41,661 nucleotides of DNA. Source: Blastopirellula marina. Lineage in GTDB: Bacteria > Planctomycetota > Phycisphaerae > Sedimentisphaerales > UBA12454. Position numbers and translations under genes: made by a program. The stretch spans positions 1 to 41,661 of the forward strand of contig DYLR01000002.1 in the NCBI GenBank assembly GCA_020721975.1, written 5' to 3'. Under the pieces are notes generated by a model that made no database searches, was not told where the DNA came from, and was given only the letters and a program-made list of their open reading frames with translations. Positions 4,710-35,808 of the stretch are shown in pieces (the stretch's first letter is position 1; every line of letters starts with the position of its first letter).

Positions 4710-4782
<73 letters not shown>

Positions 4783-17088: not shown

Positions 17089-17553
17089 TTAAGCTGTGGT
17101 CTTTATATTTGGATTGGAGAAAATCCGGTTTAATGCGATATTGCGGATAAAATCGGATATTCCCTTAAAGCCCATACTACTTGCGGCATCGGCAAGGAGC
17201 ATTTTTTCCTCGCTTGTTATACGTACATTGATTTGTTCGGTACGTATTCTGCTTGAAGCCGGAACAGGGGGCTTTTGGCCGACTTCGAGCATTGTAGCCA
17301 CAGCGACCGTAAGAGCTTTTTCGATAGCCTTGTAGCATTCATCGGGTGTCTTGCCATCAGCAAAAACTGTTGGCAGTTCCACGCTGTTGGCGACAAAGCC
17401 AAGATTTTCATTCTTATCCATGATTATACGATAAGAACCTGCAATCTTTTGGGCCTTGTGCAAAATATTCTCTGCAAAAGGCGCATTGAGCTTTTTAGTC
17501 GGTTTCGCCGCGTTCTTCGAGGAATGTTTTGAATTTTTCAACATATTCCACAC
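17089..17553 (-). CDS. hicB: HicB-like antitoxin with ribbon-helix-helix C-terminus
   Basis: 154 aa. Residues about 36-100 form the HicB partial RNase-H fold (YRIIMDKNENLGFVANSVEL, TVFADGKTPDECYKAIEKAL). Residues about 108-148 are a CopG/DUF1778-like ribbon-helix-helix (QINVRITSEEKMLLADAASS), the DNA-binding part. Its start lies inside the toxin-like gene (59-nt overlap), so translation is coupled. An inverted repeat at the promoter is a candidate operator. Confidence 0.85.
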   Translation of the reverse strand: MWNMLKNSKHSSKNAAKPTKKLNAPFAENILHKAQKIAGSYRIIMDKNENLGFVANSVELPTVFADGKTPDECYKAIEKALTVAVATMLEVGQKPPVPASSRIRTEQINVRITSEEKMLLADAASSMGFKGISDFIRNIALNRIFSNPNIKTTA

Positions 17554-31740: not shown

Positions 31741-33105
31741 TCATTCCCACTCGTTTTGCATCCACTGGCTGCAAAGAATCGCGAAATCTTCAAGGTTCAC
31801 ATAGCAGTCGCCGTTAATATCGCCCGGCACAGGGTCGCTCTTGCACGGCGGCCAATACGCCATCCAGTAATACGCCATCTGCTCAAGGTCGAGCATATTT
31901 ACCTGCCCGTCATCAACGATATCCGCTGTCAAAGTTTTCCCTGTATGAGTTATTACCGTAAGGCCGTCCCACTCATTACCTCCTGGGTTGGATATTTTGA
32001 CAAAGCCGCGATAAAAACCGCCGTCATCTCTATAGCCGATAATACAATATTCGCCGTCTGGTGCACCGGAAATATTCTCCCAAAATTCGGTTCCGCCTGT
32101 TGTCCAGCCGCCGTAGTAATATTGATTATTTGAACCTCTTACGGCATCAACCGGAATCGGCTGATGAGAAACAATTACATAATATGGATAGTTCCCGCTT
32201 ACTGTGAGCGAAGAACTGTTCTGCGATTCACCGAGTTTTACATAGTCGGTATTTTGAATGTTATGATAATATTCCCACCAGTTTCCATAAATATTATAAT
32301 CTGTACTTCCACCCCAGACCTCATAAACAATCCACGGCTGACCGACGGTAAAATTGATATATGAACAGGCTGTTTTGCCACACCAGTATCCGATGCCGTT
32401 AGCGTTGACCTGATATTCATAATTGTCAAAGTACAGGGTTGCTTCCCATAATCCTGCCGCAAGCTGCAATGGCCCGACTGATGTTGTCAATTTGTTTAAT
32501 TCCTGGTTGAAATAGGTCTGGTCATCATTTAACTCCAGCTCAAAGTATATGCTTTTCGCATTAGGGTCTGTACAGCTTTGCCATGTTGCCGTCAGCGGGG
32601 AACTGATACTCGTAAAATCGGCAGGCGATGTAAATATTGGTTTTTGTACCGGCTGAGGTATCGGCTGCGAGGTCTGGCTGTCGCCATAATAGAAACTCGC
32701 CATCTGTGCGCCGCCGGAAGTATAATGTAGAACCACGGCATACCATCCGTCGCCGAACTGCGATAATCCGCTCATGTCCGCAGCTTCTTTTTTAAGTTCC
32801 CAGCACCAGGCCTGTTCCTGTTCATCCCAGTTTCGTTCAGTCCAGACCTGATTAACATCATCCCATGTGCCGGTGGTATTGGGAATCAGAAATGTATAAC
32901 CGACCGGTGTTGTGAATTCGATATAACCAACTTCATCGTCGGTGTACATTTCAATATCGATGTTGCAACTGACTGGCGCATACCCGCCGTTGGGATATTC
33001 AAGTTCCGTCCATATCGACACTAAAAACAGATGCTCTTCCGCCTCGGCCCGGCAAACACTGCAAAAGGCAAATACAACCAGCAAAACAAAAGCATACTTA
33101 CTCAT
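31741..33105 (-). CDS. secreted protein with dockerin-like C-terminal repeat pair
   Basis: About 454 aa. Signal peptide MSKYAFVLLVVFAFCSVCRA is followed by an aromatic- and Asn-rich beta body (NYEYQVNANGIGYWCG, YNIYGNWWEYYHNIQNTD). The C-terminus has two EF-hand-like dockerin repeats, DIVDDGQVNMLDLEQMAYYW and DINGDCYVNLEDFAILCSQW, the form common in planctomycete secreted proteins. ATG 33105 has GAGG 6 nt upstream; the ORF-track start is four codons earlier. No catalytic domain is recognisable. Likely exported and calcium-binding. Confidence 0.85.
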   Translation of the reverse strand: MSKYAFVLLVVFAFCSVCRAEAEEHLFLVSIWTELEYPNGGYAPVSCNIDIEMYTDDEVGYIEFTTPVGYTFLIPNTTGTWDDVNQVWTERNWDEQEQAWCWELKKEAADMSGLSQFGDGWYAVVLHYTSGGAQMASFYYGDSQTSQPIPQPVQKPIFTSPADFTSISSPLTATWQSCTDPNAKSIYFELELNDDQTYFNQELNKLTTSVGPLQLAAGLWEATLYFDNYEYQVNANGIGYWCGKTACSYINFTVGQPWIVYEVWGGSTDYNIYGNWWEYYHNIQNTDYVKLGESQNSSSLTVSGNYPYYVIVSHQPIPVDAVRGSNNQYYYGGWTTGGTEFWENISGAPDGEYCIIGYRDDGGFYRGFVKISNPGGNEWDGLTVITHTGKTLTADIVDDGQVNMLDLEQMAYYWMAYWPPCKSDPVPGDINGDCYVNLEDFAILCSQWMQNEWE

Positions 33106-33221
33106 CCGACACCTCATAATTCCCCGACCAGCTTATATTATTTGCTTGAATATTTCTCCGCAAAGTATTTATTTTAACAATCGTGCGTGATAAATTCAAT
33201 ATGGGAGCAAAAACAGTGCGC

Positions 33222-33261
33222 AAAAAGAGATACCGACAGCTCCTGAATCTGTCGGTATCTC
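33222..33261 (-). terminator. intrinsic terminator of the candidate RNA
   Basis: Perfect 13-bp stem GAGATACCGACAG / CTGTCGGTATCTC with a 9-nt loop, then TTTTT on the minus strand. Confidence 0.9.
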
Positions 33262-33436
33262 AAAATCGACGTATGAAGAAGTTAATGGCAATTAGTATTA
33301 CATAGTATCCATCCCTGATATTCGACCCCGAAGGGTGTTTTCCCATTTTTGTTGCGGCCGCAACCCAAAACCCTCGGCTCAGCAGTTTTGCCCACTTATA
33401 TCGGGCTTAACCATCATCCCCCCTGTTTGAAGCTCC
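33222..33436 (-). ncRNA. candidate structured noncoding RNA of unknown family
   Basis: About 215 nt bounded by a consensus promoter (33443-33471) and a perfect-stem intrinsic terminator (33222-33261), with no ORF of interest. Local structure seen by eye: GCCC-GATATAAGT-GGGC, AAAAC ... GTTTT enclosing CTGCTGAGCCGAG, the 14-bp self-complementary GTTGCGGCCGCAAC, and ACCC-TTCG-GGGT. It does not match the hallmarks of 6S, SRP, tmRNA, RNase P or the common riboswitches that I know. Confidence 0.55.
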
Positions 33437-33442
33437 AGATAA

Positions 33443-33471
33443 AATATAATAAATAAATCGTTGAAAGGCAA
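33443..33471 (-). promoter_or_regulatory. sigma70-type promoter of the candidate RNA
   Basis: TTGCCT, exactly 17 nt, TATATT on the minus strand, placed about 7 nt before the start of the structured segment and about 60 nt after the hyfI-like stop. Confidence 0.65.
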
Positions 33472-33530
33472 AATGAGCAAGACAAACGGGTTAACCCGCA
33501 TTGTGTTCAAGACCTCGTGATAAATGTGGT

Positions 33531-34283
33531 TTAAATACGGCCAAGAAAACTCACAAGGCCGTCAAGAATTGTATAAGGGTGAGGCGGGCAGCCGGGTATA
33601 TACAAATCCACCGGCACAATATCGTCAGCGCCGTTGCATGTTTCTGCATGTCCGCGGTATATTCCGCCTGAAATTGCACATGCCCCGACGGCTATTACAA
33701 ATTTGGGTGATGGAACTGCGTCATAAGTTTTTTTCAGGGCCAGATTCATATTTTTCGTTACGGGGCCGGTAACAAGTATTCCGTCGCAGTGCCGCGGCGA
33801 AGCCACAAACTGAATTCCGAATCTGCCGAGGTCGAAGGCAAGCGTTGTAAGCACATTAGTGTCGGCTTCACAGGCATTGCATCCGCCTGCACTGACCTGA
33901 CGAAGTTTTAATGACCGTCCGAAGATTCTTCTGCTTTGTCTGTCGAGCATTTTCACAAGTTTTGCTTCTTTATCACAGTACAGCAGGTCATCGCGCCTTG
34001 TCGCGGCAAGACGATAATCTCCTGAAAACTCTATAGCGCCGGATGAACATATCCGGCTGCATTCTCTGCAAAAAATACATTTGCCCATATCGATATAAAT
34101 TTGGTTATTCTTCAGGGCTATTGCGCCGGTCGGACAAATATTTTCGCATGCTCGGCACTGATTGCATTTATCGCAATGTAAAACCGGCCTGCCTGCGAAC
34201 CGCTCCGGCATAATCGGCGGTTTTGCCGGAAACGGATAAGTGCGATAACCCTGTTTTATTCGCGATATTAAGGCTTTAAGCAT
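33531..34283 (-). CDS. fused ferredoxin / NuoB-like small subunit of an Ehr/Hyf-type complex
   Basis: 250 aa. Residues about 37-85 hold two 4Fe-4S clusters of the HyfH/NuoI type (CNQCRACENICP and CIFCRECSRIC). Residues about 130-250 are the NuoB/HyfI-like domain with GGCNACEAD, SPRHCDGILVTGPVT and PGCPPHPY, so the four ligands of the proximal (N2-like) cluster look intact. In E. coli hyf and hyc operons these are two proteins. GAGG precedes ATG 34283, and the gene is 7 bp after the large-subunit gene at the end of the operon. Confidence 0.88.
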   Translation of the reverse strand: MLKALISRIKQGYRTYPFPAKPPIMPERFAGRPVLHCDKCNQCRACENICPTGAIALKNNQIYIDMGKCIFCRECSRICSSGAIEFSGDYRLAATRRDDLLYCDKEAKLVKMLDRQSRRIFGRSLKLRQVSAGGCNACEADTNVLTTLAFDLGRFGIQFVASPRHCDGILVTGPVTKNMNLALKKTYDAVPSPKFVIAVGACAISGGIYRGHAETCNGADDIVPVDLYIPGCPPHPYTILDGLVSFLGRI

Positions 34284-34290
34284 AATAACC

Positions 34291-35808
34291 TCACAGGTCG
34301 TGTCCGCAGTAGGAAAGATTGAAACTTTTATTGCACAGCGGAAAATCGGATATCTGCTGATTTCTCATCGCCACAGCCAGACCCATCCAGTTATGAAATG
34401 ACGGGTCGATGATTTTATAGCGGACAAATTGTCCTTCGGCATCGGTTACGGCAATATGACAGATTTCTCCGCGCCAGCCTTCAACCATTGCCGCTGCGAT
34501 TTTGTTCGGCGCTGCAGGCGGTATTTCGGTTTGTACAGGGCCGCTGGGCATTGTGTCAAGCTGGTTTTGAATAAATGCTGCGCTGTGCTGTATTTCCAGC
34601 CATCGAACATACGCGCGAGCAAAAACATCTGCCGTATCCCATGTAGCAACCGGTATCTGGTTGAATCGGTATATACCGCAGGCAAAATTATATCGGCAGT
34701 CCTGATTAAGTCCGCAGGCACGGGCTGCCGGACCTACAAGTCCCAGCTTTGCGGCAAGCTGCTTCGATAATTTGCCGGTATCGTCAAAACGGCTCAGTAC
34801 GGACGGAGTTGTCCAAAGGCAGTTGACGGCATTGGCTACATCTTTGACAGCGGCTGTCAGGCGTTTGCGCAGTTCGTCGATATGCCGTTTTTCTATGTCA
34901 AAATTTGTTCCGCCGGGGCGGACAAAATTTCGTCCGAAACGATTACCGCAAAGGACAGCCGTCATATTCAGGAAATCGCCTCGCAAACGTCCGCAAAACG
35001 ACGCTGTGGGCAGATAACCGATATCGCCGGCCATTGCTCCGAGGTCGCCGGTGTGGTTAGCCAGCCGCTCAAATTCGAGGGCAATTCCGCGCAGACAATG
35101 CGCCCTGGCCGGAGCAGAGCAATTGCTCAAAGCTTCAAGAAGATGGCAGTATGCCAGGGTATGTCCTGTTGTAGTGTCTCCGGCAGCGGTTTGAATATAA
35201 TGAATCAGCCTGTTATGAGGCCGGCCTGTTATCTGTCGTTCGATTCCGCGGTGCTGATAGCCTAATGATATTTCCAGATGCAGAACATTTTCACCGTTGC
35301 ACTGGAAGCGAAAATGTCCCGGCTCGATAATACCGGCGTGTACGGGTCCGACCGCAACTTCATGTATCTCGCTGCCTTCGATACGGAAAAAATCCGTAAC
35401 GCCCGGCTGAATCTGCGCGTCGCCGGAACTGTTCCATAAATTACGATGTGTCCAGGACTGATGAAAACGTATCGGCTTAAGCCACGGATGGCCGTCGGGG
35501 CGGATTCCGAATTGTTCGGCAATTTCACGTTCGAACCAGTGTGCCTGCGGACAATCCGGCGTCAATGAAGGATAATTTTCCCGTACAGCCGTCCCTGCCA
35601 GATGCAATATTCCCTGGTGGTCGTCCGCAAGAACAGCTATTAGTTTCACCGTGTCGTTATTCTGCGGCAGACCAAAAAGTGCGGCAATACGTTTGCCGTC
35701 ATTGACTTCATTTATGACGATATTCCTAAAATCCTCGACAGGCAAACACGGCAGTGCGTTCGCATCGGCTGTTCTGCAATTATAAAGGCTAAGCATTCGG
35801 CGGCTCAT
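34291..35808 (-). CDS. NuoCD/HyfG-like large subunit lacking the [NiFe] ligands
   Basis: 505 aa. The N-terminal NuoC-like domain has AHWFEREIAEQFGI. The C-terminal NuoD/hydrogenase-like domain has VGPVHAGIIEPGHFRF and LGYQHRGIERQ. The position of the first Ni-binding CxxC reads IQTAAGDTTTGHTLAY (no Cys). The C-terminal DPCxxC region reads KIIDPSFHNWMGLAVA (no Cys), ending FNLSYCGHDL. The protein therefore cannot hold a NiFe centre and resembles Ehr complexes or complex I. Its ATG overlaps the hyfF-like TAA (TAATG). Confidence 0.9.
   Translation of the reverse strand: MSRRMLSLYNCRTADANALPCLPVEDFRNIVINEVNDGKRIAALFGLPQNNDTVKLIAVLADDHQGILHLAGTAVRENYPSLTPDCPQAHWFEREIAEQFGIRPDGHPWLKPIRFHQSWTHRNLWNSSGDAQIQPGVTDFFRIEGSEIHEVAVGPVHAGIIEPGHFRFQCNGENVLHLEISLGYQHRGIERQITGRPHNRLIHYIQTAAGDTTTGHTLAYCHLLEALSNCSAPARAHCLRGIALEFERLANHTGDLGAMAGDIGYLPTASFCGRLRGDFLNMTAVLCGNRFGRNFVRPGGTNFDIEKRHIDELRKRLTAAVKDVANAVNCLWTTPSVLSRFDDTGKLSKQLAAKLGLVGPAARACGLNQDCRYNFACGIYRFNQIPVATWDTADVFARAYVRWLEIQHSAAFIQNQLDTMPSGPVQTEIPPAAPNKIAAAMVEGWRGEICHIAVTDAEGQFVRYKIIDPSFHNWMGLAVAMRNQQISDFPLCNKSFNLSYCGHDL

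Follow-up and report, generated by a model that had tools for sequence, protein, structure and literature searches.

A candidate lineage-specific small RNA gene and its promoter class in an uncultured planctomycete

A short minus-strand segment in the genome of an uncultured planctomycete is predicted to be a transcription unit in its own right, bounded by a promoter and a terminator, as proposed in a first-pass annotation of this DNA and now well supported by promoter comparison and by the terminator stem. The segment belongs to a stretch of 41,661 nucleotides (41.7 kb) that was analysed as a whole and is termed the window in the following. It is flanked by an Ehr-like operon, with its stop codon at 33531, and by a gene encoding a dockerin-tailed protein. 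The favoured reading, to which roughly an even chance is assigned, regards the segment as a stand-alone, lineage-specific, largely unstructured small RNA (sRNA) gene of about 215 nt. The predicted RNA (33222..33436, minus strand) begins with GGAGCUUC at 33436 plus or minus 2, a start deduced from the position of the -10 element and by analogy with an sRNA family of related genomes, here denoted Family A, whose RNAs are predicted to start with GGAR; the first bases of the predicted RNA read GGAGCUUCAAACAGGGGGGAUGAUGG. The 3' end, a U-tract at about 33222, was placed by the terminator. The promoter class is based on comparison, the terminator on the sequence. The coordinates and signals given in the first-pass annotation were correct, and all of them lie on the minus strand.

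The neighbors of the element are likewise as previously described, judged by Pfam and coordinates. The last gene of the Ehr-like operon (33531..34283, minus strand) encodes a protein with Fer4 and Oxidored_q6 matches in Pfam. In the large-subunit protein encoded at 34294-35808, direct reading finds HRGIERQ at the place of the first CxxC of NiFe hydrogenases and the C-terminal end LSYCGHDL, both of which agree with the earlier label "Ehr-like". On the other side, the minus-strand gene at 31741..33117 encodes a secreted protein of 458 aa, whose Dockerin_1 match is slightly under the Pfam cut-off. The likely start of this gene is an internal ATG (MSKYAFVLLVV) following GAGGTG, and hence slightly later than 33117. 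The order of the signals, with the promoter 3' of the operon stop and the terminator 5' of the dockerin gene, favors an sRNA gene, as does the predicted start GGAG, which is akin to the GGAR predicted for Family A RNAs. Counting against it are the lack of a homologue of the RNA body in the order, the folding of that body at shuffle level, the chance-level predicted pairing with the Family A RNAs of the same genome, and a secreted gene close by on this strand, which admits a reading as a leader.

The claimed promoter, TTGCCT-17-TATATT (33443..33471, minus strand), is present and conforms to the class TTGCnT-N8-TTTATTTnTTAT(n)TTTTA. Its generic consensus score (9/12) is unremarkable, and generic promoter sites occur at about the shuffled rate (12 found vs 8.2 plus or minus 2.6 in shuffles of 5 kb). 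Comparative evidence, namely a promoter matrix and motif enrichment, nevertheless indicates that this sequence is a real promoter. The matrix was trained on 17 promoters of Family A small RNAs, all from other members of the same taxonomic family and none from the genome under study. It ranks the site at 33471-33443 first in the window with 29.1 bits, the runner-up reaching 15.8, and none of 200 simulated first-order Markov windows attained this value (maximum 20.7). In the whole 1.65-Mb assembly, the class motif TTGCnT-N8-TTTATTTnTTAT has a single match, which is this very site. Exact matches to the pattern TTGCCT-N7-11-TTTATTTATTATA were found in three genomes of this family, one per genome; of the exact sites in the other genomes, one directly drives a Family A sRNA. 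With up to two mismatches, the motif was found in 20 places in 13 family genomes vs 2 for the reversed control, while in other families of the order both numbered 6 (all tallies counted by hand from the search table). A BLAST search of relatives with the element returned short matches only, some of them within the promoter stretch.

At the other end of the element, the claimed perfect 13-bp terminator was found as well (33227..33261, minus strand), comprising 13 perfect pairs, a 9-nt loop, and TTTTT at 33226-33222. A stem scan reads it as GAGATACCGACAG-ATTCAGGAG-CTGTCGGTATCTC, followed by TTTTTGCGC. The window holds three perfect stems of at least 10 bp (loop 3-12), and this one is the longest, the other two measuring 10 bp. 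The hairpin segment has a folding energy of -22.1 kcal/mol, its stem contains GC, and the T-run is found on the minus strand only. A generic terminator scan did not pick up this hairpin, solely because of the 9-nt loop. On these features, the hairpin at 33261-33227 is regarded as a real unidirectional terminator. Short-transcript terminators in the same family (L058, L069, L077, L079, L075, L080, L082, and G000:C36) show a T-run followed by GCGC or ATGCGC, comparable to TTTTTGCGC in the window.

The same hairpin could also serve as the terminator of the Ehr-like operon, the element then being nothing but the distal 3' end of the operon transcript with no separate product. It is located on the same strand, 270 nt past the last stop codon, and the terminator-like hairpin nearer to the operon (GCGGGTTAACCCGT + TTTGTCTTGCT; 33486..33499, minus strand), a possible operon end, is weak and was detected by a consensus scan whose hits occur at chance rate. 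This explanation leaves unaccounted for the promoter that comparison places between operon and hairpin, although both can hold, and it is considered quite improbable.

The interior of the predicted RNA offers little in terms of structure. Without the terminator, the body gives a folding z of +1.45 (279/300 shuffles were as stable), and the whole RNA including the terminator gives -1.25, so that neither reaches an energy clearly below that of shuffled sequences. The "several local stems" of the first-pass annotation are thus at chance level. The 14-bp palindrome GTTGCGGCCGCAAC (33351..33364) is indeed present, as one of three palindromes of at least 14 bp in the window, where simple arithmetic predicts about 2.5. 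Since folding is at or below shuffle level and the palindrome at chance, the view of the element as a structured noncoding RNA is unsupported; homologues were not found either.

As to known families, the failure of the first-pass annotation to place the element was borne out by a scan against Rfam 15 at gathering threshold, in which a tRNA at 4710-4782 was the only match in the window and the best sub-threshold matches near the element were at chance level. BLAST in 59 relatives returned weak matches and no homologue. A sequence model of the RNA finds only itself in 98 genomes of the order, and a second sequence-model search in 13 family genomes revealed no homologue; of the weak matches from these searches, the three that were inspected all overlap open frames. 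The regions downstream of the Ehr operon in 18 relatives contain no similar RNA. A protein search identified the nearest relative at 79% identity in the last Ehr protein, and it found no congener. A short plus-strand match to a signal-peptide start (MKKLMAISIT; G003 loci) was judged coincidental. A CsrA-titrating RNA was also considered and dropped, with about 5 GGA motifs seen vs about 4 expected by hand arithmetic. The lack of homologues, which the first-pass annotation had named as an argument against its own proposal, speaks against a structured RNA family, and not against a transcript confined to this lineage.

In attenuated 5' leaders and riboswitches, as in the element, a terminator hairpin precedes a gene on the same strand. 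It is possible, though unlikely, that the dockerin-tailed gene has the element as its 5' leader, with the hairpin acting as a transcription attenuator that is relieved by some signal. The hairpin ends 105 nt upstream of the annotated start of this gene, and in relatives the same promoter class precedes genes for PEP-CTERM and other exported proteins with long leaders; in one case from a sister family (G013), promoter, short RNA, and terminator are followed by a pilM-like gene. An attenuator would be expected to offer an alternative antiterminator pairing, but pairing between either terminator arm and the body stays at chance level (542 and 490 of 1000 shuffled bodies were as good), and unlike riboswitches the element matches no aptamer or any other Rfam family. 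The element is missing from the dockerin-gene homologues in G005 and G047, whose upstream regions harbor no RNA of this kind. Moreover, the dockerin gene may have a separate promoter downstream of the hairpin, TTGAAT-17-TAAAAT with an extended -10 (TG) at 33171..33199 on the minus strand. This candidate is only suggestive, since such consensus sites occur at chance rate.

The claim that the segment contains no ORF holds for frames of at least 40 aa lying wholly inside it and fails for smaller ones, as micro-ORFs of 12, 28, and 37 codons are present. The element might therefore be the mRNA of a short micro-protein, either MMVKPDISGQNC following a GGGGGG block or the 37-aa frame (33395-33282), an explanation judged improbable. 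The block (33418..33423, minus strand), one of three G6 runs in the window, is located near the 5' end immediately before ATGATG. In transcripts of the promoter class, a start codon is often immediately preceded by a GGGGG run, and one group of these transcripts, Family B, encodes a conserved protein of 34 aa. Against this stand the spacing between the G-run and ATG in the window RNA (0 to 3 nt), which falls short of that of a usual ribosome site, and the 37-aa frame itself, for which neither homologues above noise among the relatives searched nor a Pfam match were found.

Leaving Families A and B aside, the promoter class has 17 matches in the family, of which 5 have a run of at least five G within 150 nt downstream, a count that includes the window RNA and two homologous genes, and 1 has such a run upstream; about 7% of 150-nt windows carry such a run as background. 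As the run directly precedes the start codon in several protein genes of the class, it may be a ribosome site in these transcripts. Family B is present at seven loci (L066, L068, L073, L076, L080, L082, and L223), where the conserved frame (MAKIRSFYYETWLPFTFNKKRILILAVASFIAMC and kin; MAKIRSFYY...RILILA...ALC) lies under the promoter class. A terminator comes next and then, wherever visible at the locus, an epimerase gene. One member was scanned against Pfam, without a match.

The favoured reading of the element as an sRNA gene can be put as a sequence of events. RNA polymerase would start at about 33436 from the class promoter, and transcription would halt at the strong hairpin (33261-33222). 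The product of about 215 nt would be mostly unstructured outside the terminator and would most likely act in trans by base pairing through its single-stranded stretches, for which the G-rich 5' block is one candidate. Transcription, noncoding nature, and action by pairing are all inferred for the window RNA. With its own promoter, its length of about 215 nt, its intrinsic terminator, and its scant conservation between genera, the element resembles generic intergenic trans-acting bacterial sRNAs. As a candidate for a lineage-specific intergenic sRNA it would be ordinary in kind, with promoter support by comparison that is unusually good.

Family A, whose members share the promoter class, is a covarying family of tandem small RNAs situated between a thymidylate-synthase-like gene and nrdR. 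Beyond the genome under study its loci are L083-L106 (12 genomes), and it adjoins nrdR wherever this was examined. R1, a model based on four sequences, detects it in 13/13 genomes of the same taxonomic family, most often with two or three units in tandem, and neither in the other 85 order genomes searched nor outside that taxonomic family among 248 genomes of the taxonomic class. Four members were tested against Rfam, and no match was obtained. Across 23 distinct sequences, 92.4% of the cells pair and 15/23 pairs change on both sides; 0/500 shuffles and no slid register reach this level, in an alignment that was fitted to the model and thereby favors the covariation result. A conserved, pyrimidine-rich single strand, CUUCUCUCCUCC...CUUGUGCUUCC, appears to resemble an anti-Shine-Dalgarno sequence.

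The window RNA shares several traits with this family, i.e. the promoter class, the purine start GGAR, a strong terminator with a T-run followed by GCGC, and the organization as an intergenic stand-alone unit. It differs from Family A in that both the CCUGCC/GGCAGG hairpin and the conserved stretch CUUCUCUCCUCC...CUUGUGCUUCC are missing. Membership, defined by the pyrimidine stretch and a 10-bp hairpin following it, was rejected, as R1 detects the copies in the same genome on another contig (G000:C36:17175-17290 and 17416-17545, minus strand) and not the window RNA. Base pairing between the window RNA and the Family A RNAs of its own genome is at chance level.

In relatives, the promoter class precedes small RNAs, micro-ORF transcripts, PEP-CTERM genes (L059 and L074), and genes for other exported proteins. 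One genome (G006) encodes an RNA of about 100 nt (L075/L224) with the same promoter class and a terminator, which starts with GGAGCGGG and has no Rfam match at gathering threshold. The class was also observed upstream of PilM-like (L206, sister family), PilX-like (L213), and pilin (L233) genes, names that were read from protein starts and not from family searches; L213 and L233 are one-mismatch matches of the pattern. Type IV pilus genes may thus be among those that the class precedes, a hint of a regulon or of a dedicated sigma factor. More broadly, and as a tentative proposal that is rather unlikely to hold in full, the TTGCnT-N8-TTTATTTnTTAT promoter might define an undescribed planctomycete regulon comprising small RNAs (Family A and lineage-specific ones like the window RNA), micro-proteins, exported PEP-CTERM proteins, and type IV pilus genes, in which the Family A RNAs, pyrimidine-rich and anti-Shine-Dalgarno-like, might target G-runs of the transcripts.

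A search of a limited literature collection for regulatory RNAs of Phycisphaerae yielded nothing, and such RNAs thus appear little described. Taken alone, the window RNA is of modest interest as an orphan sRNA candidate. Its study brought to light a recognisable promoter class and a strongly covarying sRNA family, which can be tested in any cultured relative, and Family A is the more valuable lead of the two RNAs.
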